A stretch of DNA of 64,000 nt from Streptomyces sp. VRA16 Mangrove soil (GTDB lineage Bacteria > Actinomycetota > Actinomycetes > Streptomycetales > Streptomycetaceae): NCBI RefSeq assembly GCF_017377775.1, contig NZ_JAFVLN010000005.1, forward strand, positions 434,001-498,000, given 5' to 3'. The notes under the pieces were generated by a model. The model made no database searches. It was given only the letters and a program-made list of their open reading frames with translations, and was not told the origin of the DNA. A program made the translations under genes and the position numbers. The number at the start of each line of letters is the position of its first letter. Position 1 is the first letter of the stretch. Shown one piece after another: positions 50,418-64,000 of this stretch.

Positions 50418-52220
50418 ATGACTGGCGCAGGCGGAGCAGCGGACAGATCCGGCCGGGAGCGCACCGGCCTCACCCGGCGCCGGCTCGGCGCCGCCACCCT
50501 CGCGCTGGGCGGTGCGCTCGCCCTCGCCCCGTTCCCCGCGGGACCCGCGACGGCCGCGTCCCCGAACCGGCGCCCGACGCTGCGCCACGGCTCGCCGGAG
50601 CGCGCGGGCCTGCTCGCCGGCCCGCTGCGCCAGCTGGTCGCCGATGCCGAGAAATACCTCGGCACCTTCCCCGGCGGCCCCAAGCACCCGTGGTACGCGG
50701 GCGCCGTCCTGCTCGCCGGGCGCGGCGGCACGGTGGCCCTGCACCAGCCGATCGGCAAGGCGGTGCGGTACGCGCACTACGACGACGCGACCGACACGGG
50801 CGTGGAGTTCCCCGCGGACCAGCAGATCGACATGGCCGAGGACACCGTCTTCGACCTGGCGTCGGTCTCCAAGCTCTTCACGTCGATCCTCGCCGTGCAG
50901 GAGATCGAGCGCGGCCATCTGGAGCTGGAGACGAAGGTCGCCTCGTACCTGCCGGACTTCGCCGGCGCGGGCAAGCAGGACGTGACCATCCGTCAACTGC
51001 TCACCCACACGTCGGGGTTCACGGCGTGGATCCCGCTGTACAAGGAGCCGAACCGCGAGGGCCAGGTGCGGCTGATCTGGAACCAGCCGCTGCTCAACCC
51101 GCCGGGCACGAAGTACCTCTACTCGGACCTCAACCTGATCTCGCTCCAGCTCGTCCTGGAGAAGCTCACCGGCAAGACGCTCGACGTGCTGTTGCGCGAG
51201 CGCATCACCGGGCCGCTCGGCATGACGCGCACCCGCTACAACCCGCCCGCCGACTGGAAGCCGAAGGTCGCCGCGACGGAGGACGCCCGCGCGCCCTGGT
51301 CGGGCCTGAACCGCGGCCTGGTGTGGGGCGAGGTGCACGACGAGAACGCGTACGGTCTGGGCGGGGTCGCGGGCCACGCGGGCGTCTTCTCCACGGCCTG
51401 GGACCTGGCGGTGCTCGGCCGTACCCTGCTCAACGGCGGTGTGTACGGTGACGCGCGCATCCTCTCCCAGGAGTCGGTGGACCTGATGTTCACCGACTTC
51501 AACCAGGCGTTCCCGGGCGACGAGCACGGGCTCGGTTTCGAGCTCTACCAGCACTGGTACATGGGCGCGATGGCGACGCCGCGCACGGCGGGCCACACGG
51601 GCTTCACCGGTACGTCGATCGTGCTCGACCCGACGACGGACTCGTTCCTGATCGTCCTCGGCAACTCCGTTCACCCCGTGCGCAACTGGCGGTCCGGCTC
51701 CGCACCCCGGGTCGCCGCGGGCACCGACATGGCGCGGGCCGTCGCGGTCCGCCCCGCGCACGGCCGCGCGGCCTGGTTCTCCGGGATGGCGAGCGCCACG
51801 TCGGCGACGCTGACCTTGCCGGATCTTCAACTGACCTCACCCAACGCCCGGTTGAGCTGCGCGCTGTGGTGGGACACCGAGCCGCACTCCGACTTCCTCT
51901 TCCTGGAGGCGTCGACGGACGGCGGTACGACATGGAAGGCACTGCCGTTCACCACTGACCGCACGGATGCGCACGACACCGGGTCCGTGGACGGCTGGTC
52001 GGGCCGCACCTGGCACCACCTCGCCGCGGATCTCGGCGGATTCGGCACGGGCGCCGTCCGGGTGCGGTGGCGGTACACGACGGACCAGCTCTACGTCGGC
52101 CGCGGCGTGTACGTGGACGGGATCCGGGTCACCGACGGCCGCCGGGTCGCCTTCGACGCGTCACGCCCCGCCGATTCCTCCCGCATCGAGGCGGCGGGCT
52201 GGACGGAGTCGCGGGACTGA
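50418..52220 (+). CDS. Tat-exported serine hydrolase (beta-lactamase/S12 family) with C-terminal jelly-roll domain
   Basis: A 600-residue protein with a twin-arginine signal (LTRRRLGAATLALGGALAL, cleavage near GPATAA at about 50). The penicillin-binding fold spans about 60-440: SVSK gives S149/K152, YSDLN the Tyr-x-Asn equivalent, and HTGFTG replaces the usual KTG triad. Residues about 455-590 form a beta-sandwich (ALWWDTEPHSDFLFLEASTDGG...) like those appended to secreted esterases and peptidases. Start at 50418 is eight bases after CAGGAGG. Family members include esterases, D-aminopeptidases and beta-N-acetylglucosaminidase-associated hydrolases; beta-lactam resistance is not implied. Confidence 0.85.
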   Translation: MTGAGGAADRSGRERTGLTRRRLGAATLALGGALALAPFPAGPATAASPNRRPTLRHGSPERAGLLAGPLRQLVADAEKYLGTFPGGPKHPWYAGAVLLAGRGGTVALHQPIGKAVRYAHYDDATDTGVEFPADQQIDMAEDTVFDLASVSKLFTSILAVQEIERGHLELETKVASYLPDFAGAGKQDVTIRQLLTHTSGFTAWIPLYKEPNREGQVRLIWNQPLLNPPGTKYLYSDLNLISLQLVLEKLTGKTLDVLLRERITGPLGMTRTRYNPPADWKPKVAATEDARAPWSGLNRGLVWGEVHDENAYGLGGVAGHAGVFSTAWDLAVLGRTLLNGGVYGDARILSQESVDLMFTDFNQAFPGDEHGLGFELYQHWYMGAMATPRTAGHTGFTGTSIVLDPTTDSFLIVLGNSVHPVRNWRSGSAPRVAAGTDMARAVAVRPAHGRAAWFSGMASATSATLTLPDLQLTSPNARLSCALWWDTEPHSDFLFLEASTDGGTTWKALPFTTDRTDAHDTGSVDGWSGRTWHHLAADLGGFGTGAVRVRWRYTTDQLYVGRGVYVDGIRVTDGRRVAFDASRPADSSRIEAAGWTESRD

Positions 52221-52684: not shown

Positions 52685-53737
52685 TCAGTGGGCGCCCGGG
52701 GCGGGCGCGGTCGACTCCCGAACCACCAGACGGGGTCTGATCAGCAACGAACGTCCCGCGCCCGAGGACGTCTCGATCCGGGTGCGCAGCTGCTGGAAGG
52801 TCTCGGCCGCCATCTCCGGGAGCGGCTGGCGCACGGTGGTCAGCGGGGGTTCGAAGAGTTCGGCGAGCAGGATGTCGTCGAAGCCGACCACGGAGACCTC
52901 CCGGCCCGCGCTGACGCCGGCGTCACGGGCCCCTCGGCACACGCCGATCGCGCACATGTCGTTGATCGCGACGAAGCCGGTGGGCGGCTCGGGCTGCGCG
53001 AGGAGTTCCCGGGCCGCGGCCCGCCCCAGTTCGGCGGACTCCTTGTCGCCGAACTCGCTGGTCGCCGCGCCCGGCCAGACCACGGCCGACGCCGGATCGA
53101 CACCAGCCTCCTCCAGGGCCGCACGGAAGCCGCGCATGCGCTCGCGCCGGTTCACACTGCTGACGGATCCGGACACGAACGCCAGCCTGCGGTGGCCGAG
53201 TTCGAGCAGATGGCGGGTGGCGAGCTCGGCCCCCATCGCGTTGTCGACGCTGATGCTGGAGAGGGACGCCGGGTCGCCGGACTGGGCGGCGCGGTCGAAC
53301 GCGACCATCTTCAGGCCGCGCTTGAGCAGCGGCGCCACATGGTCGAGGGTCGGCAGCGACGAGCACAGGACGACACCGCTCACCCCGTCGGCCAGCAGCT
53401 CCTCGCCGTACTTGAGCTCCCTGGCCGGGTCGCGCTCGCTGTTGCAGAGCAGGACGTGGTACCCCTCGGCCAGCGCCACGGCCTCCAACTCCCGCGCCAG
53501 GGCGCCCCAGAAGGGGTTGGCCACGGAGGGGACGATCAGGCCGATGACGCGGATGCGGCCGGTGCGCAGCATCCGCGCGGCGCGGTTCGGCCGGTAGCCC
53601 AGCGTCTCTATGACCTGCTCGACGCGGGCGAGGGTCGCGGGCTGCATCCGGTCGGTGCGCCCGTTGAGCACATTCGAGACCGTGCTCGCGGACACCCCTG
53701 CCGCCTGTGCGACCTGATGGATCGTTACCCCGTTCAA
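52685..53737 (-). CDS. LacI-family regulator of polysaccharide-lyase locus
   Basis: A 350-residue LacI/GalR repressor. HTH residues 4-25 (TIHQVAQAAGVSASTVSNVLNG), hinge PNRAARMLR, and a ligand domain with RVIGLIVPSVANPFWGALA and SVVGFDDILLAELFEPPLTTVRQP. The start is TTG at 53737, eight bases after GGAGG, which gives the HTH at the expected position. It is divergent from the ABC/lyase operon; three operator-like repeats lie in the gap. Probably induced by an unsaturated oligouronide or its breakdown product (inference). Confidence 0.93.
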   Translation of the reverse strand: MNGVTIHQVAQAAGVSASTVSNVLNGRTDRMQPATLARVEQVIETLGYRPNRAARMLRTGRIRVIGLIVPSVANPFWGALARELEAVALAEGYHVLLCNSERDPARELKYGEELLADGVSGVVLCSSLPTLDHVAPLLKRGLKMVAFDRAAQSGDPASLSSISVDNAMGAELATRHLLELGHRRLAFVSGSVSSVNRRERMRGFRAALEEAGVDPASAVVWPGAATSEFGDKESAELGRAAARELLAQPEPPTGFVAINDMCAIGVCRGARDAGVSAGREVSVVGFDDILLAELFEPPLTTVRQPLPEMAAETFQQLRTRIETSSGAGRSLLIRPRLVVRESTAPAPGAH

Positions 53738-53777
53738 CGCGGTGCCACCTCCGGCTCGTCACGTCACTGTACGCAGC

Positions 53778-53793
53778 AGTGTACCGATTTACT
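53778..53793. promoter_or_regulatory. LacI operator-like repeat 1
   Basis: AGTGTACCGATTTACT has partial dyad symmetry (AGTnnAnCGnTnnACT) around a central CG, as LacI-family operators do. It is 41 bp upstream of the LacI gene start, suggesting autoregulation. Confidence 0.6.
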
Positions 53794-53894
53794 GAACGAG
53801 CAACACCGCCAAGGGACTTCTTGATCCTCGTAACAGGACCGAAAAATAGTTGCGTGTGGGCTGTTGACGCTCGGTTGAGGCCGTTCCTAGCATC

Positions 53895-53910
53895 AGTGCA
53901 TCGATTTACC
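53895..53910. promoter_or_regulatory. LacI operator-like repeat 2
   Basis: AGTGCATCGATTTACC matches repeat 1 at 13 of 16 positions with the same central CGATTTAC. Lies in the middle of the divergent region. Confidence 0.6.
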
Positions 53911-53966
53911 GAAGGCCGCGACCCCACCGCGGGCATCTACGTCGTGGCACGTAGCCGCATCGATCT

Positions 53967-53982
53967 GTGCATCGGTGCACCA
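53967..53982. promoter_or_regulatory. LacI operator-like repeat 3
   Basis: GTGCATCGGTGCACC shares GTGCATCG with repeat 2 and is itself a good palindrome (GTGCA/TGCAC). It lies about 40 bp before the binding-protein start, where a bound repressor would block transcription. Confidence 0.55.
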
Positions 53983-54020
53983 CTCACCATCTCGCTTCCT
54001 CGCCTCTTAAGGGGTGTCCC

Positions 54021-55292
54021 ATGGAACTCACGAGACGATCGCTCCTGGCCGCGCTGGGCGCCGGCACGGCGGCGGCGCTCACCGGCTGCGGCGCCGGCAC
54101 CGGCGCGAGCGGCAAGGCCGACGGACCGGCCCAGGGGGAGATCTCGCTGCTCACCCCGATCTACGAGGGGGCGGACGGCAAGCAGCTCCTGGAGGGGAAG
54201 ATCCTCAAGGACTTCCGCGCGAAGTACCCGGACGTCAAGGTCAGCGTCGACTACACGACGTACACCCAGCTCAACGAGAAGATCACCACCGCGCTCGCGG
54301 GCGGCCTGCTGCCGGACGTGCTGATGATGGGAGTCGGCTGGATCCCGCCGTTCGCCGCGAAGAAGGTGCTCGCCGAACTGCCGGAGTCGCTCGCCGCCAA
54401 GTACGACTACGAGGACCGGGTTCTCGAACCTTCCCGCTACCAGGGCACGTTGTACGCCCTGCCGACCGTGATGGCGACGCGCCTGGTCGCCTACCGCAAG
54501 GACCACTTCGCGGCGGCCGGCATCAAGAAGCCCCCGGCGTCACTGGCCGAACTGCGCGCCATGGCCAAGGAGTTGACCAAGGGCGAGCGGATGGGCATGG
54601 ACCCGTTCTCCATCGATCTGCGCCAGTGCTGGGAGACGTTCCTGTACGCCAACGGCGGTCAGCTGTTCAGCCCCGACGGGAAGAAGACCGCGTTCACCGA
54701 CGCGCGAGGTGTCGAGGCGCTGCAGTTCTTCAAGGATCTGCAGAAGGACGGCTCGGCGGACTACGCGAAGAAGACGGAGGCGGACGCGGGCGCCGCGACC
54801 AATCTCCAGCTCGGCAAGGCGTCCATGATGATGACCGGCAGCGGCCTGTGGAAGCAGCTCCAGGAGCAGAGCCCGGAGCTCATCGAGAAGGATCTCGTCG
54901 GCGCGTTCGTGCTGCGCGGCCGCAGGCCCGCGATGCTCACCGGCGGCACCCTGGTCTGCCAGTCGGCGCGCAGCCAACACGCCGCCGCCGCACAGGCGTT
55001 GGTCGCGCACCTGGCGGCGCCCGGCAACGTGCTGGCGGCCGCGAAGCAGCGGGCGACGGTCCCCGGCATCACCTCGCTGCGCTCGTCGTCGTACGTGAAG
55101 GGCAACAAGCTGGTCGACTTCTCGGTCCGCAATCTGGGCGACGCCTGCGCCGAGGGCGGCACTCCGGCCTGGATGGAGATCCGCGAGAAGATCAAGCCGA
55201 CGCTCGAACCGGCGATCGTGGGCGACACGTCGGCGGCGTCCGCCATAGCCGACCTCGGCGAGCTGGCCGACGCGGCCATCTCCCGGCTGTGA
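54021..55292 (+). CDS. Extracellular sugar-binding lipoprotein (Tat-type) of second ABC importer
   Basis: A 423-residue CUT1 solute-binding protein. The N-terminus MELTRRSLLAALGAGTAAALTGC combines twin arginines with a lipobox, Cys23 being the lipidated residue. 'ILKDFRAKYPDVKVSVDYTTY' and 'GQLFSPDGKKTAFTD' are typical CUT1 landmarks. The start at 54021 has AAGGGG six bases upstream. First gene of an operon running to the window end. Expected ligand: oligosaccharides made by the secreted lyases encoded downstream. Confidence 0.93.
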   Translation: MELTRRSLLAALGAGTAAALTGCGAGTGASGKADGPAQGEISLLTPIYEGADGKQLLEGKILKDFRAKYPDVKVSVDYTTYTQLNEKITTALAGGLLPDVLMMGVGWIPPFAAKKVLAELPESLAAKYDYEDRVLEPSRYQGTLYALPTVMATRLVAYRKDHFAAAGIKKPPASLAELRAMAKELTKGERMGMDPFSIDLRQCWETFLYANGGQLFSPDGKKTAFTDARGVEALQFFKDLQKDGSADYAKKTEADAGAATNLQLGKASMMMTGSGLWKQLQEQSPELIEKDLVGAFVLRGRRPAMLTGGTLVCQSARSQHAAAAQALVAHLAAPGNVLAAAKQRATVPGITSLRSSSYVKGNKLVDFSVRNLGDACAEGGTPAWMEIREKIKPTLEPAIVGDTSAASAIADLGELADAAISRL

Positions 55293-55305
55293 GGGGTCGC
55301 TGACC

Positions 55306-56262
55306 GTGGGAGCCGTCTCCGTACTCAAGACGCGGCCGCCGACCGCGCCCGCACCACCCGTCGCGCCGTCGACTCCCGCTCGCCGCAAGGGTCCTGGGGC
55401 CCGCAGGCGCCGGGCGGGTCTGCTGATGGTGGCGCCCGCGCTGCTGCACGCGGCGCTGTGGATCGGTGTGCCGGTCGTCGCCGCCGTGTGTCTGGCGTTC
55501 ACGTCGTACGACGTACTGACCCCGCCGAGGTTCGTCGGCCTGGACAACTTCCGGGACATGCTGAACGACGCCGTGTTCCGCAAGGCGATCGTCAACACCG
55601 TCGTCTACACGTTCTTCACGGTGCCGTTCGGGATGGCGCTCGGGCTGCTGCTCGCCCTCGCGCTCAACACCGGGCTGCGGGCACGCGGAGTGTTCCGGAC
55701 CGCGATCTTCCTGCCGCAGGTGACCGCGACCGTGGCGATCGCGCTGGTGTGGCTGTGGATCTACAACCCGCGCAACGGCCTGTTCAACACGCTGCTCGGC
55801 CTGTTCGGGATCGAGGGCCCGGCCTGGCTCGCCTCCACGTCGTGGGCGATGCCGTCGGTGATCCTCGTCGGCGTCTGGCAGGGCATCGGCATGAAGATGC
55901 TGATCTATCTGGCCGCGCTGCAGAACCTTCCGAAGGACCTGTACGAGGCGGCCTCCGTCGACGGGGCCTCGCCGGTGCGGCAGTTCTTCTCGATCACGCT
56001 GCCGCTGCTGAAGCCGGCCACCTTCTTCGTCCTCATCACCTCGATGATCGGCGCGTTCCAGTCCTTCGACCAGATCTACGTCCTCACCGACGGCGGCCCC
56101 GCGGGCTCGACGACGATGATGACGTACGAGATCTACAAGTCGGCGTTCCGCGAGTTCCGCGTGGGCTACGCCTGCGCCCAGTCGCTGGTCCTGTTCGTGC
56201 TGCTCATGGGGTTCACCCTCGTCAACCGGCGCATCATGGGAGGCACCCGTGGCCACGACTGA
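55306..56262 (+). CDS. Sugar ABC transporter permease (MalF type), lyase locus
   Basis: A 318-residue permease, GTG start 13 bp after the binding-protein gene. Six predicted membrane spans; EAA loop EAASVDGASPVRQFFSITLP at about residues 222-241. A Pro/Ala-rich cytosolic N-terminus of about 35 residues precedes the first span. Overlaps the next permease gene by 14 bp. Confidence 0.92.
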   Translation: MGAVSVLKTRPPTAPAPPVAPSTPARRKGPGARRRRAGLLMVAPALLHAALWIGVPVVAAVCLAFTSYDVLTPPRFVGLDNFRDMLNDAVFRKAIVNTVVYTFFTVPFGMALGLLLALALNTGLRARGVFRTAIFLPQVTATVAIALVWLWIYNPRNGLFNTLLGLFGIEGPAWLASTSWAMPSVILVGVWQGIGMKMLIYLAALQNLPKDLYEAASVDGASPVRQFFSITLPLLKPATFFVLITSMIGAFQSFDQIYVLTDGGPAGSTTMMTYEIYKSAFREFRVGYACAQSLVLFVLLMGFTLVNRRIMGGTRGHD

Positions 56263-57145
56263 GACCGTGCGCCCCGCGGCGCGGCGGCCCGTTCCGCCCG
56301 GCCGGATCGTGCTGTACGTGACGCTGTCGGTGATCTCGCTGCTGATGGTGGTGCCCTTCCTGTGGATGATCGTCACCTCGCTGAAGACCCCGCAGGAGAT
56401 CGCGTCCGAGCACACCGGGCTGCTGCCCGCGCACTGGGACTTCGGCAACTACGTCGACGCGTTCGACGCGGCGCCGTTCGCCACGTACGCCCGCAACAGC
56501 TTCGTCATCGCGCTCAGTCACACCGTGCTCAACGTGGTGTTCGCGTCGATGGCGGGGTACGCGCTGGCCCGGATCCGGTTCCGCGGCAGTGAGTTCCTGT
56601 TCTACTGCTTCGTCGCCGCGCTGATGATCCCGACGTACACCAAGGTCCTGCCCGAGTTCCTGATCGTGCGGTTCATGCCGCTCGCGGGCGGCAACGACCT
56701 GTTCGGGCAGGGCGGCAGCGGCTGGCTCGACACCTGGTGGGCGCTGATCGTGCCCGGCGCGGTGACACCGTTCGCGGTGTTCCTGTTCCGCCAGTTCTAC
56801 CTGGATCTTCCGGTGGAGCTGGAGGAGGCGGCCCGCCTCGACGGGCTCGGCGAGTTCCGGATCTACGCCCGCATCATGACGCCGCAGGTCAAGCCGGCGC
56901 TCACCACGGTGGCGCTGCTGACCTTCGAGTCGTCGTGGAACAACTTCCTGTGGCCGCTGCTCGTGACGCGCACCGACAGTCTGCGCGTCATCCAGGTCGG
57001 CCTGTCGGTCTTCAAGACGGAGAACGGCACGCAGTGGCACTTCCTCATGGCCGGTACGACGCTCGCGACGCTGCCGATGGTGCTGCTGTTCCTGCTCGGC
57101 CAGCGCTACTTCGTGCAGGGGTTCGCCCACACCGGCCTCAAGTGA
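56249..57145 (+). CDS. Sugar ABC transporter permease (MalG type), lyase locus
   Basis: A 298-residue permease with GTG start inside the end of the previous gene, indicating translational coupling. Six predicted spans; EAA loop EEAARLDGLGEFRIYARIMTP at about residues 190-210. No ATPase gene follows, again implying a shared ATPase such as MsiK. Confidence 0.92.
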   Translation: MATTETVRPAARRPVPPGRIVLYVTLSVISLLMVVPFLWMIVTSLKTPQEIASEHTGLLPAHWDFGNYVDAFDAAPFATYARNSFVIALSHTVLNVVFASMAGYALARIRFRGSEFLFYCFVAALMIPTYTKVLPEFLIVRFMPLAGGNDLFGQGGSGWLDTWWALIVPGAVTPFAVFLFRQFYLDLPVELEEAARLDGLGEFRIYARIMTPQVKPALTTVALLTFESSWNNFLWPLLVTRTDSLRVIQVGLSVFKTENGTQWHFLMAGTTLATLPMVLLFLLGQRYFVQGFAHTGLK

Positions 57146-57182
57146 CCCCTCGCAACTCCCCGCCCTTTTCGAAAGGTTCCGC

Positions 57183-57947
57183 ATGTCCAGTGATCTTCAG
57201 GGTTCCCGTGCGCTCGTGACCGGCGCGGGGCACGGCATCGGCCGGGCCATCGCCGTCGCGCTCGCCGCGGCCGGCTGCGACGTCGCCGTGCACTACCGCG
57301 GCTCGGCCGAGGAGGCGGGCCGCACGGTCGCCGCGATCGAGGAGCTGGGACGGCGCGCCAAGGCGTTCCAGGCCGACGTCACCGTCACGGCCGAGGTGGA
57401 CGGGCTCGTGGCCGACACCGTCGGGTTCCTCGGCGGGCTCGACGTCCTCGTGTGCAACGCGGGGCATCTGATCGGCCGGGCGACCGTCGCGGAGATGAGC
57501 GACGAGCACTTCGACCGGGTGATCGACGCGAATCTGACGTCGACGTTCCGTACCTGCCGGGCCGCCCTGCCACATCTGTCGGCGTCGCCCGCCGGGCGCA
57601 TCGTGACCATGTCGTCGCTGGCCGCGCACAACGGCGGTGGCCCCGGCTCGGTGGCGTACGCCGCCGCGAAGGCCGGCATCCGCGGCTTCACGAAGGCGCT
57701 GGCCAAGGAGGTCGCGGGGGCGGGCGTGACGGTGAACGCGGTCGCGCCGGGCTTCATCAAGGGCACCGCGTTCCACGACACGTTCACGGCGCCCGAGGCG
57801 CAGGAGGCGATGGCGGCGGGCATCCCGGTCGGCCGTCCCGGCACGCCGGAGGACGTCGCCGCGTCCGTCGTCCACCTCGCCTCGCCCGCCGCCGGGTTCC
57901 TCACGGGGACGACGCTCGACATCGACGGTGGTGTGTGGCCCCGATGA
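57183..57947 (+). CDS. SDR-family NAD(P)-dependent oxidoreductase
   Basis: A 254-residue classical short-chain dehydrogenase/reductase. Cofactor motif TGAGHGIG (13-20), NAG at 92-94, catalytic Ser144/145, Tyr159 and Lys163 (YxxxK), and the terminal DIDGGVWPR. Position between an oligosaccharide importer and two lyases suggests reduction of the unsaturated-uronate product (4-deoxy-5-hexosulose uronate) to 2-keto-3-deoxygluconate, as in alginate pathways. This role is inferred from context only. Stop overlaps the next start (ATGA). Confidence 0.9.
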   Translation: MSSDLQGSRALVTGAGHGIGRAIAVALAAAGCDVAVHYRGSAEEAGRTVAAIEELGRRAKAFQADVTVTAEVDGLVADTVGFLGGLDVLVCNAGHLIGRATVAEMSDEHFDRVIDANLTSTFRTCRAALPHLSASPAGRIVTMSSLAAHNGGGPGSVAYAAAKAGIRGFTKALAKEVAGAGVTVNAVAPGFIKGTAFHDTFTAPEAQEAMAAGIPVGRPGTPEDVAASVVHLASPAAGFLTGTTLDIDGGVWPR

Positions 57948-59734
57948 GCCGGATGATCCCGCGCGAGCGGGGCGGCTGGTGGCACGCGTACGTGTGTCCC
58001 GCGCACGGTCTCGAACTGGACCACGGCGACGTGCTGTCCGGGGTGTTCCCCGAGGGCGGCGCGCGGTGTGCCCGCGGCTGCCGGGTGGACACCCCCGAGG
58101 TGCGCGGCGCGTGGACGGTCCTCGCGCACCAGGCGTGGGCGCGCCGGATCCGGGTGCTCGCGCTGCGCGGAGAGGACGCCGATGCGGTGCGGCTACTGGT
58201 CGAGTACGCCGATGTGTACCGGGAGTTGGCGGCCGACGGGCACGAGGGCGCGCAGGCGTGGATGCTGCGCGGGCGGCTCTTCCACCAGGCGCTGACCGAC
58301 GCGATCTGGGCGGTGAACATCGGACACGCCGTCTGGACGCTCGCGGAGCACGGCGCGCCCGGTACCGACGCCGTGCTCCCGCTCCTGGACGAACTGGAAC
58401 GGGCGGCCCTCGACGCCCGGCACGTCCTGGTCGACCGGGGCGATCTGGCGTCGAACTACACGACGTGGCTGACAGCGGCGGGGATCGCGACGGGCCGGGC
58501 GGCGGCGCTGGTGCGCGGCACTTCGTGGGACGGCGCCAAGCAGTGGCTGGACGGGCCGCACGGGCTGTACGCGCAGCTGCGGGCGTGCGTCGGCGGCGAC
58601 GGCTGGGAGTGGGAGGGCAGCACGTACTACCACGGGTTCGTGCTGCGGGCCGCGCTGCTCGCGCTGCGCGGTCTCGCTCCCGCGGACGTTCCGGCGGACG
58701 TGGCGCAGCGGTTGTGCGGCATGGTCGACGTGCTCGCGGCGCTGGCCACGGACGGCGGGGTGCTGCCCGCCCTCAACGACGGGCCGTACGTGCGGGCTCC
58801 GCTCGCCCTGGAGTGGCTCGAACTGGTCGCGCTGGCGGAGGGTTTCGCGCCGTCGTCGCGTCTCGCCGCGGTGGCGGCGCAGGCCCGGGTGGAGGCCGGG
58901 GCGATGGACGACGGCATGGACCTGCTGCTCTCCGGCCAAGGCCCGTGGTTCGCGGGTCCCCCGCTGCCGGAGCGGCCGGCGCCCGCGCCGGTGACGGTCT
59001 TCGAGGACGCCGGGTACGCGGTGGTGCGTTCGGCCGGGGTGCAGGCGGTTCTGGCGTTCGGGCCGCACGGCGGTTCGCACGGGCACCGGGACAAGCTGGC
59101 CCTGTCGCTGTACGGCAGCGGCGCGTGCTGGCAGCCCGATCCGGGCCAAGTCCCCTACGCGCACGCCGAGTTCCGGGACCATTACGCCTCGACGGCGGCG
59201 CACCCGGCGTTCCGGGTCGACGGCGCCGAGCAGGCGGAGTGCGCGGGCCGACTCGTAGCGCGCGACGCGGTGTCGGTGACGGCCGAGGTGAGCGAGGCGT
59301 ACGACGGGGTGCGGGCGGTGCGCCGGATCGAGGCGGCGGGCTCCCACCTCGTCGACGTCCTGACGGTGGAGGCCGGCGCCGGACGGCAGGTCACGGCCCA
59401 GTTGCGGCCCGGCGTCGCGCTCGACGTGCAGGTGCAGCCGGACGGGCCGGTGCGCACGACCTGGTACGGGCCCGGCGACGAGGTGCTGCACGGCTGGCAC
59501 GCCTCGGACGGTGCCGTACGCCCGGTGACCCGGCCGGGACCAGGGACGGCTGACGATCCTCAACTCACGCACACCTGGGTCGACTTGACCGGGTACGGCG
59601 CGCGGATCGTGTACGCGTCCGTGTACCGGACGGCGGCGCAGGGCCCGGCCGTGACGGATGTGCGCGTGACCGGGGACGAGGTCGTGGTGGAGCGCGCCGA
59701 CGGCTCGCGGAGCGTGCACGGGACGGGGGCCTGA
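57944..59734 (+). CDS. Heparinase II/III-like lyase, cytosolic (1)
   Basis: A 596-residue protein. The N-terminal half (about 60-330) is an (alpha/alpha) toroid with DRGDLASNYTTWLTAAGI and 'GDGWEWEGSTYYHGFVLRAAL' (aromatic/Tyr-His region typical of catalysis). The C-terminal half has the heparinase II/III signature GPHGGSHGHRDKLALSLYG (about 373-391). There is no signal peptide, so it should act on imported oligosaccharides by beta-elimination, as exo-lyases of families PL15/PL17/PL21 do. Overlaps the SDR gene by ATGA. The first 50 residues (WWHAYVCPAHGLELDH with Cys pairs) are unusual and may bind metal. Confidence 0.82.
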   Translation: MSRMIPRERGGWWHAYVCPAHGLELDHGDVLSGVFPEGGARCARGCRVDTPEVRGAWTVLAHQAWARRIRVLALRGEDADAVRLLVEYADVYRELAADGHEGAQAWMLRGRLFHQALTDAIWAVNIGHAVWTLAEHGAPGTDAVLPLLDELERAALDARHVLVDRGDLASNYTTWLTAAGIATGRAAALVRGTSWDGAKQWLDGPHGLYAQLRACVGGDGWEWEGSTYYHGFVLRAALLALRGLAPADVPADVAQRLCGMVDVLAALATDGGVLPALNDGPYVRAPLALEWLELVALAEGFAPSSRLAAVAAQARVEAGAMDDGMDLLLSGQGPWFAGPPLPERPAPAPVTVFEDAGYAVVRSAGVQAVLAFGPHGGSHGHRDKLALSLYGSGACWQPDPGQVPYAHAEFRDHYASTAAHPAFRVDGAEQAECAGRLVARDAVSVTAEVSEAYDGVRAVRRIEAAGSHLVDVLTVEAGAGRQVTAQLRPGVALDVQVQPDGPVRTTWYGPGDEVLHGWHASDGAVRPVTRPGPGTADDPQLTHTWVDLTGYGARIVYASVYRTAAQGPAVTDVRVTGDEVVVERADGSRSVHGTGA

Positions 59735-59735
59735 C

Positions 59736-61718
59736 ATGCTGCTGTCCGCGACGCCACCGCCGGGCCCGCGCCCGCACCAGGAGCGCAGGCTGCTCGACGA
59801 GGCGGTCCGGCACCGGGCGCTGACGCCACCGTCCCGGCACCCGGAGGCGAGCATCACCTGGCTGGGCCCGGCCGCCGCCCACCCGGCGCTCGCCCACCGC
59901 CTGACCGGCGACCCGGCCCATCTCGCCGAGGCGGAGCGGTGGATCGCGGCGGCGGTCCGTCTCCCGCACTGGGGCCGGGCCCACATGCCCGACCACGACC
60001 TGGACGCGGGCTGGCTGCTGCACGGTCTGTCCCTGGCCCACCACTGGATCGGCGACGTGCTCTCCCCCGACCTCGTGGGCCTGCTGCGCTACAAACTCCT
60101 CGTCCAGGGGCGGCGGTTGTACGAGTTCGCGGTGGCGACCGAGGGCCGCTGGTGGTCGTCCTCGTACTGGCAGAACCACAACTGGATCTGCTACGCGGGC
60201 CTCGCGACCGCCGGGTACGTGCTCGGGCGCGAGGAGTGGACGGAGCGGGCCAAGGACAATCTGGGCCGGGTCCTGGACGCGCTGCCCGCCGACGGCTCGC
60301 ACGCCGAGGGCGTCGTGTACTGGCGGTACGGGGTGCCGTGGCTGGCGATCCATCTCGATCTGCTCCAGGAGTGCGAGGGCCTGGACTGGTGGGACCGGGG
60401 CGGCTTCATGGAGCACACCTTCGGCTTCCGGCTGCATCAGTCGGCGCCCGGTTTCGCCGAGCAGACCGGACACGGCGACTGCCACGACCGGCGCAGTGGT
60501 CACAGCGTGGCCCTGTACCGGCGGCTCGCCGCACGCTTCGGGATCGGCGAGGCCCAGTGGCTCGCCGACCTCGTGGACCGCGAACTCTTCGACGACGAGG
60601 CCGTGTTGAGCGGCGTACGGCCGGGGATCCGGGCGGAGGCATATCTGGAGTACCTGTGGCACGACCCGTCGGTCGAGCCGGTCGCGCCCGCGCGGACGCA
60701 TGCGTACTTCCCTGATCTCGGGCTGCTCACGGCGCGAACGGGGTGGGACGCGGCGGCGACGTTCGTGTCGTTCAAGGCGGCGCCGGGCGGCGGCCACCAG
60801 GCGTGGGAGACGTCGGCGAAGCACCGGGCCGACCTCGGCTGGGAGACGCTCGGCCAGGGGCATCACCACCCGGACGCCGGGTCGTTCGTCCTCACGTCGG
60901 GCGGTTCCTTCCTCGCCGTCGACGAGGGCTACAGCAACAACAAGCGAACCGCGCACCACAATCTGCTGCTCGTCGACGGACAGGGCTTCGCGGGCGAGGG
61001 CCGCTACCACGTGTACGAGGGCATGCCGTACGAGCACCGGGCGCGGCTGCGGGACGTGCTGGCCGACGGCGGGTGGGCGCACGGCACCGCGGAGATCGCC
61101 GCGATGTACCCGTCCGAACTGGGTGTGCGACGCCTTGACCGGACGCTGGTCTGCACCCCGTCGGGGCGCCTCGTGCTGCTCGACGAGGCGGCGGCCGACA
61201 CCGCCCGCACCTGGACGTTCCTGCTGCAGACGGACGCGCCGACGACACCGCACGGCCCTGACGGTCACGACCGGCTGATCGAGGCCGGGGACGCGCGGGC
61301 CTGGCTGCGCCGGCACGCCCCCGACGACGGCGAGGTCGTCTCGCGGCCGGTCGAGGTCGAGGCCAACCCCACGTCCAGCACACCGGAGTTGAGCATCACG
61401 CGAACCCTGCACACACTGCGGGTGACGACGCCCGCACGCGCACAGGCTCGGTTCCTGACGACGATCGAGCCGGAGGCGCAGGCGCCGACGGCACGTTGGA
61501 CCCCGTACGGCATCACCTTCGCGACGCCCGACGGCCCGGAGACCGTGCTCCTCTCCCCTGTCGAGCGGCGCATCGAGGCGCCCGGGGTGTCGGCGCACGC
61601 GGCGGCGGTGCTGCTCGCGCCCGGCCGTGCGCCCTATGTGGTCGCGGGCACGCGCCTCGCCCTGGACGGAAGGACCGTCCGCACCTGGACGGAGCCGCAC
61701 ACCGGATCGGCGGTATAG
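59736..61718 (+). CDS. Heparinase II/III-like lyase, cytosolic (2)
   Basis: A 660-residue protein starting 2 bp after the previous stop. N-terminal helical toroid with SSSYWQNHNWICYAGLATAGYVL (about 142-163; the Asn-His pair typical of lyase active sites) and GSHAEGVVYWRYG. The C-terminal beta-domain has GQGHHHPDAGSFVLTSGGSFLAVDEGY (about 372-398), the metal/structural motif of heparinase II, and 'RTAHHNLLLVDGQG'. No signal peptide. Distant from the preceding lyase-like protein, so the two probably cut different linkages of the same oligosaccharide. Confidence 0.83.
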   Translation: MLLSATPPPGPRPHQERRLLDEAVRHRALTPPSRHPEASITWLGPAAAHPALAHRLTGDPAHLAEAERWIAAAVRLPHWGRAHMPDHDLDAGWLLHGLSLAHHWIGDVLSPDLVGLLRYKLLVQGRRLYEFAVATEGRWWSSSYWQNHNWICYAGLATAGYVLGREEWTERAKDNLGRVLDALPADGSHAEGVVYWRYGVPWLAIHLDLLQECEGLDWWDRGGFMEHTFGFRLHQSAPGFAEQTGHGDCHDRRSGHSVALYRRLAARFGIGEAQWLADLVDRELFDDEAVLSGVRPGIRAEAYLEYLWHDPSVEPVAPARTHAYFPDLGLLTARTGWDAAATFVSFKAAPGGGHQAWETSAKHRADLGWETLGQGHHHPDAGSFVLTSGGSFLAVDEGYSNNKRTAHHNLLLVDGQGFAGEGRYHVYEGMPYEHRARLRDVLADGGWAHGTAEIAAMYPSELGVRRLDRTLVCTPSGRLVLLDEAAADTARTWTFLLQTDAPTTPHGPDGHDRLIEAGDARAWLRRHAPDDGEVVSRPVEVEANPTSSTPELSITRTLHTLRVTTPARAQARFLTTIEPEAQAPTARWTPYGITFATPDGPETVLLSPVERRIEAPGVSAHAAAVLLAPGRAPYVVAGTRLALDGRTVRTWTEPHTGSAV

Positions 61719-61724
61719 ACGGCG

Positions 61725-62333
61725 ATGACCATGTCTCTCCAGTTCGGCTCGCGCGGACGGCCGCTGCGGGTGCTCGACCGGGTGGCCCAACCGGCCGCAG
61801 CGGGCGCCGCGTTCACGGTCCTGGCCCTCGGCGTCGTGACCTGGCTGCCCGCGCTCGTCGCCCTCGCCCGCACGCTCCAGCGATGGCGCTCCGACGGGGA
61901 CAACCGGTGCTTCACCGGGGTGTTCGCCGTGTTTCCGCGCTGCTGGCGCGTGCTGTGGCGGCAGAGCCTCATCGGGACCGCCGCCGTGGCCGTCCTCCTC
62001 GCCAACTGCCTCTTTCTGAGCGGGCGTTCCAGTCCGCACCCGTTCGTGCTGCTGGCCGCGCAGGCCGGGATCGTGGCGGCCCTCGCGGTCCACTGCACGG
62101 CGTTCGCGGCGCACGCGGCCCTCGCCCCGGACGCGCCGCCCGCCGACTGGCATCAGCGGGCGTTCGCCCTCGCCTTCGGCTCGCCCGCGCGCGGCACCGC
62201 TCTGCTCGGCGCGGCCGTCTCCGCCGTGATCCTCACGCTGCCCGTCCCGCTCGGCCCGCTGCTGTTCGGTCCGAGCGTGCCCGTCCTGCTCGCCCTGCAC
62301 TTCGCCGCACCGCAACCAGAGAGGACCCCGTGA
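61725..62333 (+). CDS. DUF624 membrane protein (YesL-like)
   Basis: A 202-residue protein with about four to five hydrophobic segments (AAAGAAFTVLALGVVTWLPAL, 'LIGTAAVAVLLANCLFL', 'FVLLAAQAGIVAALAV', 'ALLGAAVSAVILTLPVPL'). DUF624/YesL proteins are recurrent in polysaccharide operons, e.g. rhamnogalacturonan clusters of Bacillus, and their role is unknown. Its stop overlaps the next start. Confidence 0.8.
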   Translation: MTMSLQFGSRGRPLRVLDRVAQPAAAGAAFTVLALGVVTWLPALVALARTLQRWRSDGDNRCFTGVFAVFPRCWRVLWRQSLIGTAAVAVLLANCLFLSGRSSPHPFVLLAAQAGIVAALAVHCTAFAAHAALAPDAPPADWHQRAFALAFGSPARGTALLGAAVSAVILTLPVPLGPLLFGPSVPVLLALHFAAPQPERTP

Positions 62334-63427
62334 TGTCCAGACGCACCCCGCACGTCCTGTCCGCCCTCGCGCTCGGCGCCTGCGCCGCGCTCGCCCTGCC
62401 CGCCGCACCGGCCACCGCGGCCACCGCGTACTACGTGAGCCCGAGCGGCAGCGACACCGCCGCCGGTACGTCGCCCGGCGCGCCGTTCGCCACGATCCAG
62501 CACGCCCTCGACGTGGCCCCGGAGGGCTCCGTCGTGCACCTGGCCTCGGGCACGTACCTCCAGGACGTGGTGACGCGCCGGGAGAACGTCACCCTCACCG
62601 GCCCGGCGAGCGCCGTCGTGAAGGGGGCGGGCAGCACCCGTATCGTGCAGGTGCAGCACGACGGCACCGTCCTCGACGGGTTCACCGTGGACGGCCTGTT
62701 CGGGTCGTCGAGCAGCGTCGCCGGCTACCGCTCCAAACTCGTCTACGTGATGAGCACAACGCCCGGCAACGGCGTCAACGCCCTGACGATCACGAACATG
62801 ACGCTGAAGAACGCGGCCGACGAATGTCTGCGGCTGCGCTATCTCGTCACGGGTGCCGACGTGCACGACAACACGATCAGCGACTGCGGCGTCGCCGACT
62901 TCAAGTTCGGCGGGGGCGGCAAGAACGGCGAGGGTGTCTATCTCGGCACGGCCCCCGAGCAGCAGGGCGCGAACGGTGCGCCCGACGCGGCCCCCGACGT
63001 CAGCAAGAACAACCGGATCCACCACAACACGATCGCCACGCGCGGCAACGAGTGCGTCGACGTGAAGGAGAACTCCACCCACAACTACGTGGAGTACAAC
63101 GACTGTTCGCAGCAGCGTGACCCGAGTTCGGGTGGGCTCGACGCGCGTGGGAACGGCAACATCTTCCGGTACAACACTCTGCACGACAACACGGGCGCGG
63201 GCGTCCGGCTCGGCGGCGACACCGCCACGGACGGTGTCGACACCCAGGTCTACGGCAACACGATCACCGACAACGCGGGCGGCGGCATCAAGGTGATGCG
63301 CACCCCGCAGGGGCCGGTGTGCAGCAACACGATGAGCGGGAACACCGGGGGGAACTCCGTGGGCACGTACGGCGCCGACTACGACCCGACGGCCCTCTGC
63401 TCCGCGAGCGCCGGGGCCGCGTCGTGA
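62333..63427 (+). CDS. Secreted right-handed parallel beta-helix protein (possible lyase)
   Basis: A 364-residue exported protein. Signal peptide 1-31 (MSRRTPHVLSALALGACAALALPAAPATAAT). YYVSPSGSDTAAGTSPGAPFATIQHAL is the usual entry into pectate-lyase-like helices (DUF1565 type). Later coils include DECLRLRYLVTGADVHDNTISDCG and ECVDVKENSTHNYVEYNDC, the last resembling PL9-like coils. Three Cys pairs could form disulfides. ATG at 62333 is seven bases after GAGAGGA. Probably a polysaccharide lyase or binding helix; catalytic residues were not securely identified. Confidence 0.8.
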   Translation: MSRRTPHVLSALALGACAALALPAAPATAATAYYVSPSGSDTAAGTSPGAPFATIQHALDVAPEGSVVHLASGTYLQDVVTRRENVTLTGPASAVVKGAGSTRIVQVQHDGTVLDGFTVDGLFGSSSSVAGYRSKLVYVMSTTPGNGVNALTITNMTLKNAADECLRLRYLVTGADVHDNTISDCGVADFKFGGGGKNGEGVYLGTAPEQQGANGAPDAAPDVSKNNRIHHNTIATRGNECVDVKENSTHNYVEYNDCSQQRDPSSGGLDARGNGNIFRYNTLHDNTGAGVRLGGDTATDGVDTQVYGNTITDNAGGGIKVMRTPQGPVCSNTMSGNTGGNSVGTYGADYDPTALCSASAGAAS

Positions 63428-64000
63428 CCACGACCCGCCGCACCGTCCTCGCCGGCACCGGCGCGGCCCTCGCCGCGCTCGCCCTCCCGACGCCCCTGCT
63501 GTCCGTCGCGCACGCCGACGACGACACGGCCTCCCTGCGCGCCCGTTGGCAGACCCTGCTGACCGGCGGGCCGGGGCTCGACACCACGGAGCCGCGGATC
63601 GCCGCCGCGGTCGCCCGGATCGACCGGGCGGCGGTGAGCGCCGCGAAGGGCCTCGACCCGTCCCGCACCGACGGCCTGTGGCCCGACCTGACCAGCACCT
63701 CCGTCTCGAACCACGTCACCACGTCCTTCAAGCGGCTCGCGACGATCGCCACCGCGTGGGCGGTGCCGGGCACGGGCCAGTACGGCGACGCGGCCCTCGC
63801 AGAGCTGCTGTGCCGGGGCGTCGACTGGATGCTCGACCACCGCTACGGCCCCGATCACGTGCGGTTCGACAACGACTGGGACTGGGAGATCGGCTGCGGG
63901 CTCGCCCTCAACGACACAGCGGTGCTGCTCTTCGACGTGCTCGGCGCGGACCGGCTGACCCGGGTCACCGACGCCGTACGCCACTACACGCCGGACCCGA
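63424..64000 (+). CDS. Secreted PL8-family polysaccharide lyase, N-terminal part (cut by window edge)
   Basis: GTG at 63424 overlaps the previous stop (GTGA). The first 192 residues show a twin-arginine signal (TTTRRTVLAGTGAALAALALPTPLLSVAHA) and the start of the (alpha/alpha) toroid of family PL8: LRARWQTLLTGGPGLDTT, then 'DGLWPDL' and DNDWDWEIGCGLALNDTAVLLFD, equivalent to the aromatic patch NWWDWEIG... of hyaluronate, chondroitin AC and xanthan lyases. The catalytic Asn-His-Tyr lie beyond the window. It cleaves uronic-acid polysaccharides outside the cell by beta-elimination. Confidence 0.88.
   Translation, partial: MTTTRRTVLAGTGAALAALALPTPLLSVAHADDDTASLRARWQTLLTGGPGLDTTEPRIAAAVARIDRAAVSAAKGLDPSRTDGLWPDLTSTSVSNHVTTSFKRLATIATAWAVPGTGQYGDAALAELLCRGVDWMLDHRYGPDHVRFDNDWDWEIGCGLALNDTAVLLFDVLGADRLTRVTDAVRHYTPDP

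Follow-up and report, generated by a model that had tools for sequence, protein, structure and literature searches.

A conserved Streptomyces operon with a PL8 lyase of the Aly16-1 clade and two heparinase-fold proteins, probably for alginate utilisation

Introduction

Which polysaccharide is degraded by a Streptomyces gene cluster that combines a secreted lyase with a sugar importer and two cytosolic heparinase-fold proteins? The cluster begins at position 52685 of a 64,000-nucleotide stretch of Streptomyces sp. VRA16 Mangrove soil (RefSeq assembly GCF_017377775.1, contig NZ_JAFVLN010000005.1, here C37, positions 434001-498000), which is called the window throughout; coordinates past 64000 continue its numbering. 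It consists of a divergent gene for a LacI-family repressor and a row of plus-strand genes for a sugar-binding protein (SBP), two ABC permeases, a short-chain dehydrogenase (SDR), the heparinase-fold proteins HEP1 and HEP2, a small DUF624-like protein, a right-handed beta-helix protein, a PL8 lyase and a CE7 acetylesterase. An initial annotation had proposed external cleavage by a secreted lyase, import, and intracellular heparinase-fold lysis to unsaturated monomers, with a possibly unrecognised polymer as the target. This general scheme is supported by the present analysis. The target is probably alginate, in particular mannuronate-rich alginate, which would be utilised under LacI control. 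Alginate is a sugar polymer of brown algae and some bacteria. The gene classes of an alginate locus (secreted lyase, importer, heparinase-fold pair and SDR) are present and conserved together, with activities that are predicted. The alginate-lyase activity itself is taken from one characterised enzyme only, Aly16-1 (PMC11596371).

The PL8 lyase belongs to the Aly16-1 clade

The PL8 gene (63424-65805, plus strand) had been listed correctly in the initial annotation, but it is cut by the end of the window, which holds positions 63424-64000, and it is followed by the CE7 gene. Its product carries the Pfam domains Lyase_8_N, Lyase_8 and Lyase_8_C and, judged by eye, an export signal. Aly16-1 of Streptomyces sp. 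CB16 is a PL8 enzyme encoded by 2418 bp, with the same three domains and an export signal, and is described as a mannuronate-preferring, endolytic alginate lyase with an activity of about 15,284 U/mg on polymannuronate versus 438 on polyguluronate (PMC11596371). The published Aly16-1 primers match the operon PL8 genes of S. anulatus (locus L035) and Streptomyces sp. McG3 (L050), in both cases with no mismatch in the forward and one in the reverse primer. Their sites correspond to the start of the mature protein and to its C-terminus. Each of the two genes has exactly the published length of 2418 bp. The primers do not match the PL8 gene of the window (six mismatches at the C-terminus, five elsewhere), but its product is 74.3% identical to the protein of S. 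anulatus. Its three domains are placed as in Aly16-1, with domain ends 11-19 residues earlier, an N domain of 332 versus 334 residues and a central domain of 256 residues in both. Judged by the primers, length and domains of its orthologues together with this identity, the window PL8 is a member of the Aly16-1 clade. The residues N206, H270 and Y279 are found in 30 of 31 sequences, one of which is truncated, and R333 and R337 in all 31. Aligned to xanthan lyases, these are presumably the catalytic Asn, His, Tyr and Arg. A Microbacterium PL8 that is 32-34% identical to Aly16-1 was reported to be inactive on alginate (PMC12666371), which indicates that alginate activity is no general trait of the family.

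The distribution of this clade in the genus ties it to the operon. In a scan of 295 Streptomyces genomes, with three candidates scored per genome, PL8 proteins of the clade (72-100% identity) were found in 17, and the next listed match reached at most 43%. HEP2 occurs in 19 of the same genomes, so the operon is uncommon; these include all 17 with the clade PL8, at a distance of 0.7-3.0 kb between the two genes. The remaining two are G217, in which HEP2 is only 59% identical, and G057, in which HEP2 is in two pieces. The latter genome (loci L025/L026) gives the impression of operon decay. In Streptomyces sp. RKAG290 (L034, 13318-17261) the beta-helix and PL8 genes look split, by decay or by sequencing error.

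Distribution of the operon and its lyase modules

Related loci were collected by a HEP2 scan of a one-genome-per-species collection, which confirmed 147 stretches. The best 80 of these were kept and gave 79 loci, or 80 with the window. For the gene maps, genes were called by a simple program and clustered by BLAST, and some starts are wrong, for example those of LacI, SDR and permease 1 in L005; in L098 only two genes were called. Clusters of accessory genes were named from one representative each, scanned against Pfam: PL7 (Alginate_lyase2, 8e-44), PL6 (Chondroitinas_B, 3e-50), SGNH (Lipase_GDSL_2), GH88, the PfkB-type kinase of 2-keto-3-deoxygluconate (KDG) and the aldolase of 2-keto-3-deoxy-6-phosphogluconate (KDPG). 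All counts over these related genomes share ancestry and do not represent independent events.

The exact order of a divergent LacI gene, SBP, two permeases, SDR, HEP1 and HEP2 is found in 66 of the 80 loci, including the window. An arrangement kept so widely is far beyond chance. The DUF624 gene is next after HEP2 in 65 of the 66. Carriers of the core are Actinomycetota, from Streptomyces and Kribbella through to Isoptericola, Salinibacterium and Plantibacter. The other 14 loci were left out of the two-by-two counts. They lie near contig ends (L030, L047, L050, L067, L096), contain an inserted gene (L071), or are Chloroflexi loci with another layout or poor gene calls (L098-L105). In Promicromonospora kroppenstedtii (L096, 191-3589), HEP2 appears to be the first part of a 1132-residue open frame with an adjoining CE7 gene.

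Downstream of the core, the loci differ in a modular manner. Of the 66 core loci, 30 carry both PL8 and CE7 and three carry CE7 alone; PL8 alone is never found, and 33 loci have neither. In the 30 PL8-type loci the two genes follow a beta-helix gene (28/30) and an SGNH gene (25/30, although not in the window itself). The pairing also extends to four Kribbella loci (L054, L058, L063, L068). PL8 (30 loci) and PL7 (8 loci) are mutually exclusive across the core loci. Over all 80, PL7 was assigned by gene cluster in nine, where it stands in place of PL8 and CE7, and seven of these nine also carry KDPG aldolase and KDG kinase genes, or PL6. KDG kinase or KDPG aldolase is present in 15 of the 66 core loci. 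PL6 was assigned in three of the 80, one of which is the PL8-type locus L038, where the LacI gene has a KDG kinase, a KDPG aldolase and a gene of the PL6 cluster as neighbours. A genome-wide PL7 search covered 50 loci: 31 without PL8, 17 of 31 PL8-type loci, and two PL7-type positives, both of which were detected. PL7 was found in the genomes of six of the 31 loci without PL8 versus 3 of 396 genomes of the phylum. Among these six, the PL7 of L070 lies inside the locus itself, and the contig of L053 stops after HEP2.

The cytosolic heparinase-fold proteins

HEP1 (57944-59734, plus strand) was assigned by profile, fold and conserved residues, and no signal peptide was seen by eye. Its residues are numbered here from the Met at 57953. 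In profile searches of the PDB it matches PL17 alginate lyases first (BoPL17, 8bdd, E value 3.5e-18). A structure model built with 20 sequences (mean predicted local distance difference test, pLDDT, 92.6) shows the two-domain fold of the PL17 type, an (alpha/alpha) toroid with a beta-sandwich. The best match by root-mean-square deviation (rmsd) and identity is Alg17c (Z 25.7, rmsd 3.2, 508 aligned residues, 20% identity). Y225, Y226 and Y411 are kept in 68 of 68 sequences, opposite Tyr residues of PL17 chains. In PL17 both the catalytic base and the catalytic acid are Tyr (PMC12336832). The N-terminus (window 57953-58081) contains a conserved WWHxYVCPxHG...C..GC pattern resembling a small metal-binding knuckle, with C15, H18 and C43 kept in at least 90% of 20 aligned sequences.

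HEP2 (59736-61718, plus strand) likewise shows no signal peptide by eye, and its nearest named relatives are from Streptomyces (S. longispororuber, 85%). Its profile matches in the PDB are dermatan-sulfate epimerase (1.4e-33), the PL15 oligo-alginate lyase Atu3025 (9.9e-29) and PL35 (5.6e-18). The fold ranking follows a different order, with dermatan-sulfate epimerase at Z 31.5, PL35 at 29.6 and PL15 at 24.8, the last preceded also by a second PL35-type lyase, heparinase II, alginate lyase Dp0100 and others. The underlying model has weak loops (18 sequences, pLDDT 80.1; below 50 in several loops including 245-254, 367-379 and 397-407). H148, Y195, Y198, H376 and H378 are kept in 78 of 78 sequences. 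Such a His-Tyr-His set is common to the lyases and the epimerase and hence does not separate them. HEP2 was therefore also considered as a cytosolic uronate C5-epimerase instead of a lyase, and its conserved residues would fit both roles. The Pfam domain Hepar_II_III_C was detected in both proteins, at 56.5 bits in one and marginally in the other (25.3 bits; the cut-off is 24). Neither HEP1 nor HEP2 could be placed squarely in one described family.

HEP2 relatives with 42-44% identity occur in the Chloroflexi loci L099, L100 and L102-L105, in a layout with SDR, importer genes and a beta-helix protein; the gene maps of these loci contain no HEP1. In these loci, members of the HEP2 family possibly act on other uronides or on heteropolymers.

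Operon structure and predicted regulation

Except for permease 2, families were assigned by a Pfam scan. The SBP gene (54021-55292; SBP_bac_1, family 1, chosen start) encodes a protein with a lipoprotein-like signal by eye. It is followed after 13 nucleotides by permease 1 (55306-56262; BPD_transp_1), whose real start possibly lies further downstream. Permease 2 (56249-57145), identified from its translation and the conserved order, overlaps permease 1 by 14 nucleotides and is separated by 37 from the SDR gene (57183-57947; adh_short), a proposed reductase of 4-deoxy-L-erythro-5-hexoseulose uronate (DEH). SDR and HEP1 are joined by an ATGA overlap, given the HEP1 start at 57944. HEP1 and HEP2 are one nucleotide apart, and six nucleotides separate HEP2 from the DUF624-like gene (61725-62333), which was assigned by its conserved position and a sub-threshold score (21.9 against a cut-off of 24.2). 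The latter overlaps by one nucleotide with the beta-helix gene (62333-63427; DUF1565/Beta_helix, export signal by eye), which in turn overlaps PL8 by four. The CE7 gene (65808-66782; AXE1) lies outside the window, two nucleotides after PL8, and its product has no visible signal peptide. All these genes are on the plus strand, and from SBP to CE7 they form one real operon. The initial annotation had drawn one operon that included LacI; its families are largely confirmed and the genes are tightly packed, but LacI (52685-53737, minus strand; LacI and Peripla_BP_3, with place and orientation kept in 66 of 80 loci) is divergent and is thus a regulator beside the operon, outside it. The next gene after CE7, also outside the window, encodes an FAD oxidoreductase on the minus strand. 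Upstream, at 50418-52217, lies a gene whose product combines a serine beta-lactamase-family domain with a MAM domain at the C-terminus; members of its cluster were found near the operon in 10 of 79 related loci.

The beta-helix protein gave seven PDB matches, all of them partial. It was considered as a mannuronan C5-epimerase or as another lyase, and nothing tested supports either. The SBP matches were uninformative: AlgQ1 and AlgQ2 are absent among the 21 PDB matches listed (E value 1e-20), which are general sugar-binding proteins.

The spacer between LacI and SBP contains three copies of the palindromic pattern GTGYAHCGRTKYACY, and no other exact match exists in the genome of 9.75 Mb; the reversed pattern, used as a control, has one genome match. 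The predicted operators, all given on the plus strand, are O1 (GTGTACCGATTTACT, 53779-53793), O2 (GTGCATCGATTTACC, 53896-53910) and O3 (GTGCATCGGTGCACC, 53967-53981). A predicted promoter read from the sequence, TTGACG-18 nt-TAGCAT (53864-53893, plus strand), lies directly upstream of O2, which begins 32 nucleotides past the start of TTGACG. The pattern was derived from the window and seven other spacers and then scored in 67 LacI-SBP spacers, which share descent. It is present in all 67 with at most one mismatch (exact in 60, one mismatch in seven), compared with none of 1340 shuffled spacers. TTGAC was found 24-40 nucleotides before an operator (at most two mismatches) in 64 of 67 spacers versus 0 of 1340 shuffles. 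This layout would fit a repressor that closes the promoter. When one mismatch was allowed, the genome search returned 33 rows: the three exact sites and 30 scattered one-mismatch rows, among which is O3 on the opposite strand.

Related genes elsewhere in the genome

The initial annotation had pointed to GH88/GH105, KDG kinase and aldolase genes as likely companions. The last two are present in the genome as adjacent KDG-kinase-like and KDPG-aldolase-like genes, which score below the NCBIfam curated cut-offs, but they are on another contig (C14) and outside the operon. A second aldolase-family gene is located on C38. GH88/GH105 (PF07470) gave no match in the genome, in a search that was positive in 3 of 14 control genomes. 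The standard disaccharide route for glycosaminoglycans, xanthan or gellan is accordingly lacking, which leaves room for another route. No PL7 was found in the genome either; no control genome was positive, but the same search finds PL7 in the two positive loci. The genome does encode PL6-family proteins, two with strong matches and a weak third. The genes of the two strong matches are adjacent on C11 (L143, 8778-11672) and are accompanied by another importer. Judged by eye, the region also contains an SGNH-like gene and probably one for a GH29 fucosidase, and it is possibly a second uronide locus. The operator pattern, searched over the whole genome with up to one mismatch, is absent beside both the PL6 pair and the KDG-kinase/KDPG-aldolase pair.

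Alginate and the alternative substrates

Alginate as the substrate is favoured by the membership of the PL8 in the Aly16-1 clade and its tie to HEP2 in the genus, the PL7, PL6, KDG kinase and KDPG aldolase genes of some sister loci, the excess of PL7 in genomes of loci without PL8, the alginate-lyase matches of HEP1 and HEP2, the lack of GH88/GH105 and the conserved operator. Several observations weigh against it. The nearest solved relatives of the window PL8 in the PDB are xanthan lyases, followed by chondroitin AC and hyaluronate lyases, a similarity that, taken alone, would mislead. Aly16-1 itself also cleaves hyaluronan, chondroitin sulfates and xanthan (PMC11596371). Heparinase III ties with Alg17c in the fold comparison of HEP1 (Z 25.8), though at an rmsd of 5.6 and 14% identity. 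HEP1 has N168-Y169 in 68 of 68 sequences where PL17 chains have Asn-His (N201-H202 in Alg17c). Because Tyr169 replaces the His of PL17, HEP1 is called PL17-like and not a PL17 member. The best solved relative of HEP2 is a uronate epimerase, and its Chloroflexi relatives adjoin a GH88-family gene, assigned by cluster. The SDR matches in the PDB include the DEH reductase A1-R' of Sphingomonas, but not as the best, and are not diagnostic. The KDG kinase and aldolase genes are outside the operon, with no operator seen near them, and a KDG kinase lies within the fetched stretch in only one of 30 PL8-type loci (L038) versus 13 of 36 other core loci. PL7 was found in none of the 17 PL8-type genomes searched. 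A phylum-wide link between HEP1 and PL7 was also not seen, each occurring in 3 of 396 genomes without overlap, which is too rare for a test.

Some of these points would suit another uronic homopolymer or a mixed polyuronate, such as glucuronan or a bacterial exopolysaccharide, degraded by the same chemistry. PL8 and the heparinase-fold families span more than one uronic acid, Aly16-1 is multifunctional, and HEP1 lacks a His that is conserved in PL17. Such a substrate is nevertheless unlikely, since Aly16-1 prefers mannuronate and some sister loci have PL7 or PL6 as partners.

The operon could also serve a glycosaminoglycan or xanthan, with the PL8 acting as a hyaluronan, chondroitin or xanthan lyase, its products being imported and HEP1 and HEP2 acting on the oligomers. 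The side activities of Aly16-1, the solved relatives of the PL8, the resemblance of HEP2 to dermatan-sulfate epimerase and PL35 chondroitinase, and the GH88-family gene in the Chloroflexi loci all speak for this. It is rather improbable, however, as the genome search found no GH88/GH105, the operon genes scanned include none for hexosamine or mannose, and PL7 or PL6 accompany some sister loci. Furthermore, two other PL8 genes of the genome (C11:100011-102404 and C11:1032640-1035027), 42% and 39% identical to the window PL8, could serve such polymers.

The unrecognised polymer suggested by the initial annotation draws on the conserved beta-helix and DUF624 proteins without assigned roles, and on CE7 and the SGNH gene of most PL8-type relatives, which suggest an acylated substrate; it is not supported and very improbable in view of the evidence for alginate, the more so as bacterial alginate, that of Pseudomonas, is itself O-acetylated on mannuronate (PMC4890793).

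Proposed pathway and comparison with known systems

Alginate utilisation by the operon would begin outside the cell, where the secreted PL8 is expected to cut polymannuronate stretches by beta-elimination, as does Aly16-1 of the same clade. The resulting unsaturated oligomers would be taken up by the SBP/permease importer, and CE7 may strip acetyl groups, if present, inside the cell. HEP1 and HEP2 are proposed to form a cytosolic oligo-alginate lyase pair that degrades the oligomers to the unsaturated monomer, which would open to DEH. Reduction of DEH to KDG is assigned to the SDR, and KDG would probably be processed further by the products of the KDG-kinase-like and KDPG-aldolase-like gene pair on C14. 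LacI presumably represses the operon, and probably itself too, through the three operators.

The strict link of PL8 with CE7 (30/30), together with the O-acetylation of mannuronate, makes bacterial alginate in acetylated form a hypothetical natural substrate. A tentative extension of the alginate reading, possible but doubtful, is that the PL8 version is specialised for O-acetylated, mannuronate-rich alginate of the Azotobacter/Pseudomonas type. Secreted SGNH and intracellular CE7 would deacetylate this polymer and PL8 would cut its M-blocks, while the PL7 version, built on the same core, would serve algal alginate.

Alginate lyases of Streptomyces as such are reportedly already known (for example PMC8621082). 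Sphingomonas A1 degrades alginate with cytosolic lyases and A1-R reductases. Its importer, AlgM1M2SS, works with the binding proteins AlgQ1/AlgQ2 (PMC8286568). The pathway proposed here shares with it ABC import of alginate followed by cytosolic lysis and DEH reduction. In Sphingomonas, however, alginate enters by a pit system, whereas here a secreted lyase would act first and the operon contains no transporter ATPase gene. PsMan8A is, to our knowledge, known in no operon. It is a fungal PL8 alginate lyase (PMC7911691; PMC11596371) and thus resembles the model for the window PL8 in acting on mannuronate, but differs in its origin. Vibrio VaAly17A and VaAly17B are two heparinase-fold oligo-alginate lyases that act in succession (PMC12336832). 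HEP1 and HEP2 are a comparable pair, although their joint action is a prediction. Both Vibrio enzymes belong to PL17, whereas HEP1 is PL17-like with the His-to-Tyr replacement and HEP2 resembles PL15, PL35 and dermatan-sulfate epimerase. Aly16-1 was studied as a single enzyme, and the available text describes no operon, importer or HEP proteins (PMC11596371). The main text of PMC8286568 mentions neither Streptomyces nor Actinobacteria. No description of the operon was recognised in the literature searched, which covers few subscription journals.

Conclusions

The operon described here is conserved in actinobacteria and comes with interchangeable modules, PL8 with CE7 in some loci and PL7 in others, the latter often accompanied by KDG kinase and KDPG aldolase. 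Its further features are the operator motif and the two heparinase-fold proteins inside the cell. A PL8 enzyme so far characterised alone is thereby given a genomic setting and a probable substrate in nature. If the reading of acetylated alginate is true, Streptomyces and Kribbella with the PL8 version would feed on the alginate of their neighbours, and feeding on the alginate of bacterial biofilms would be directly testable.

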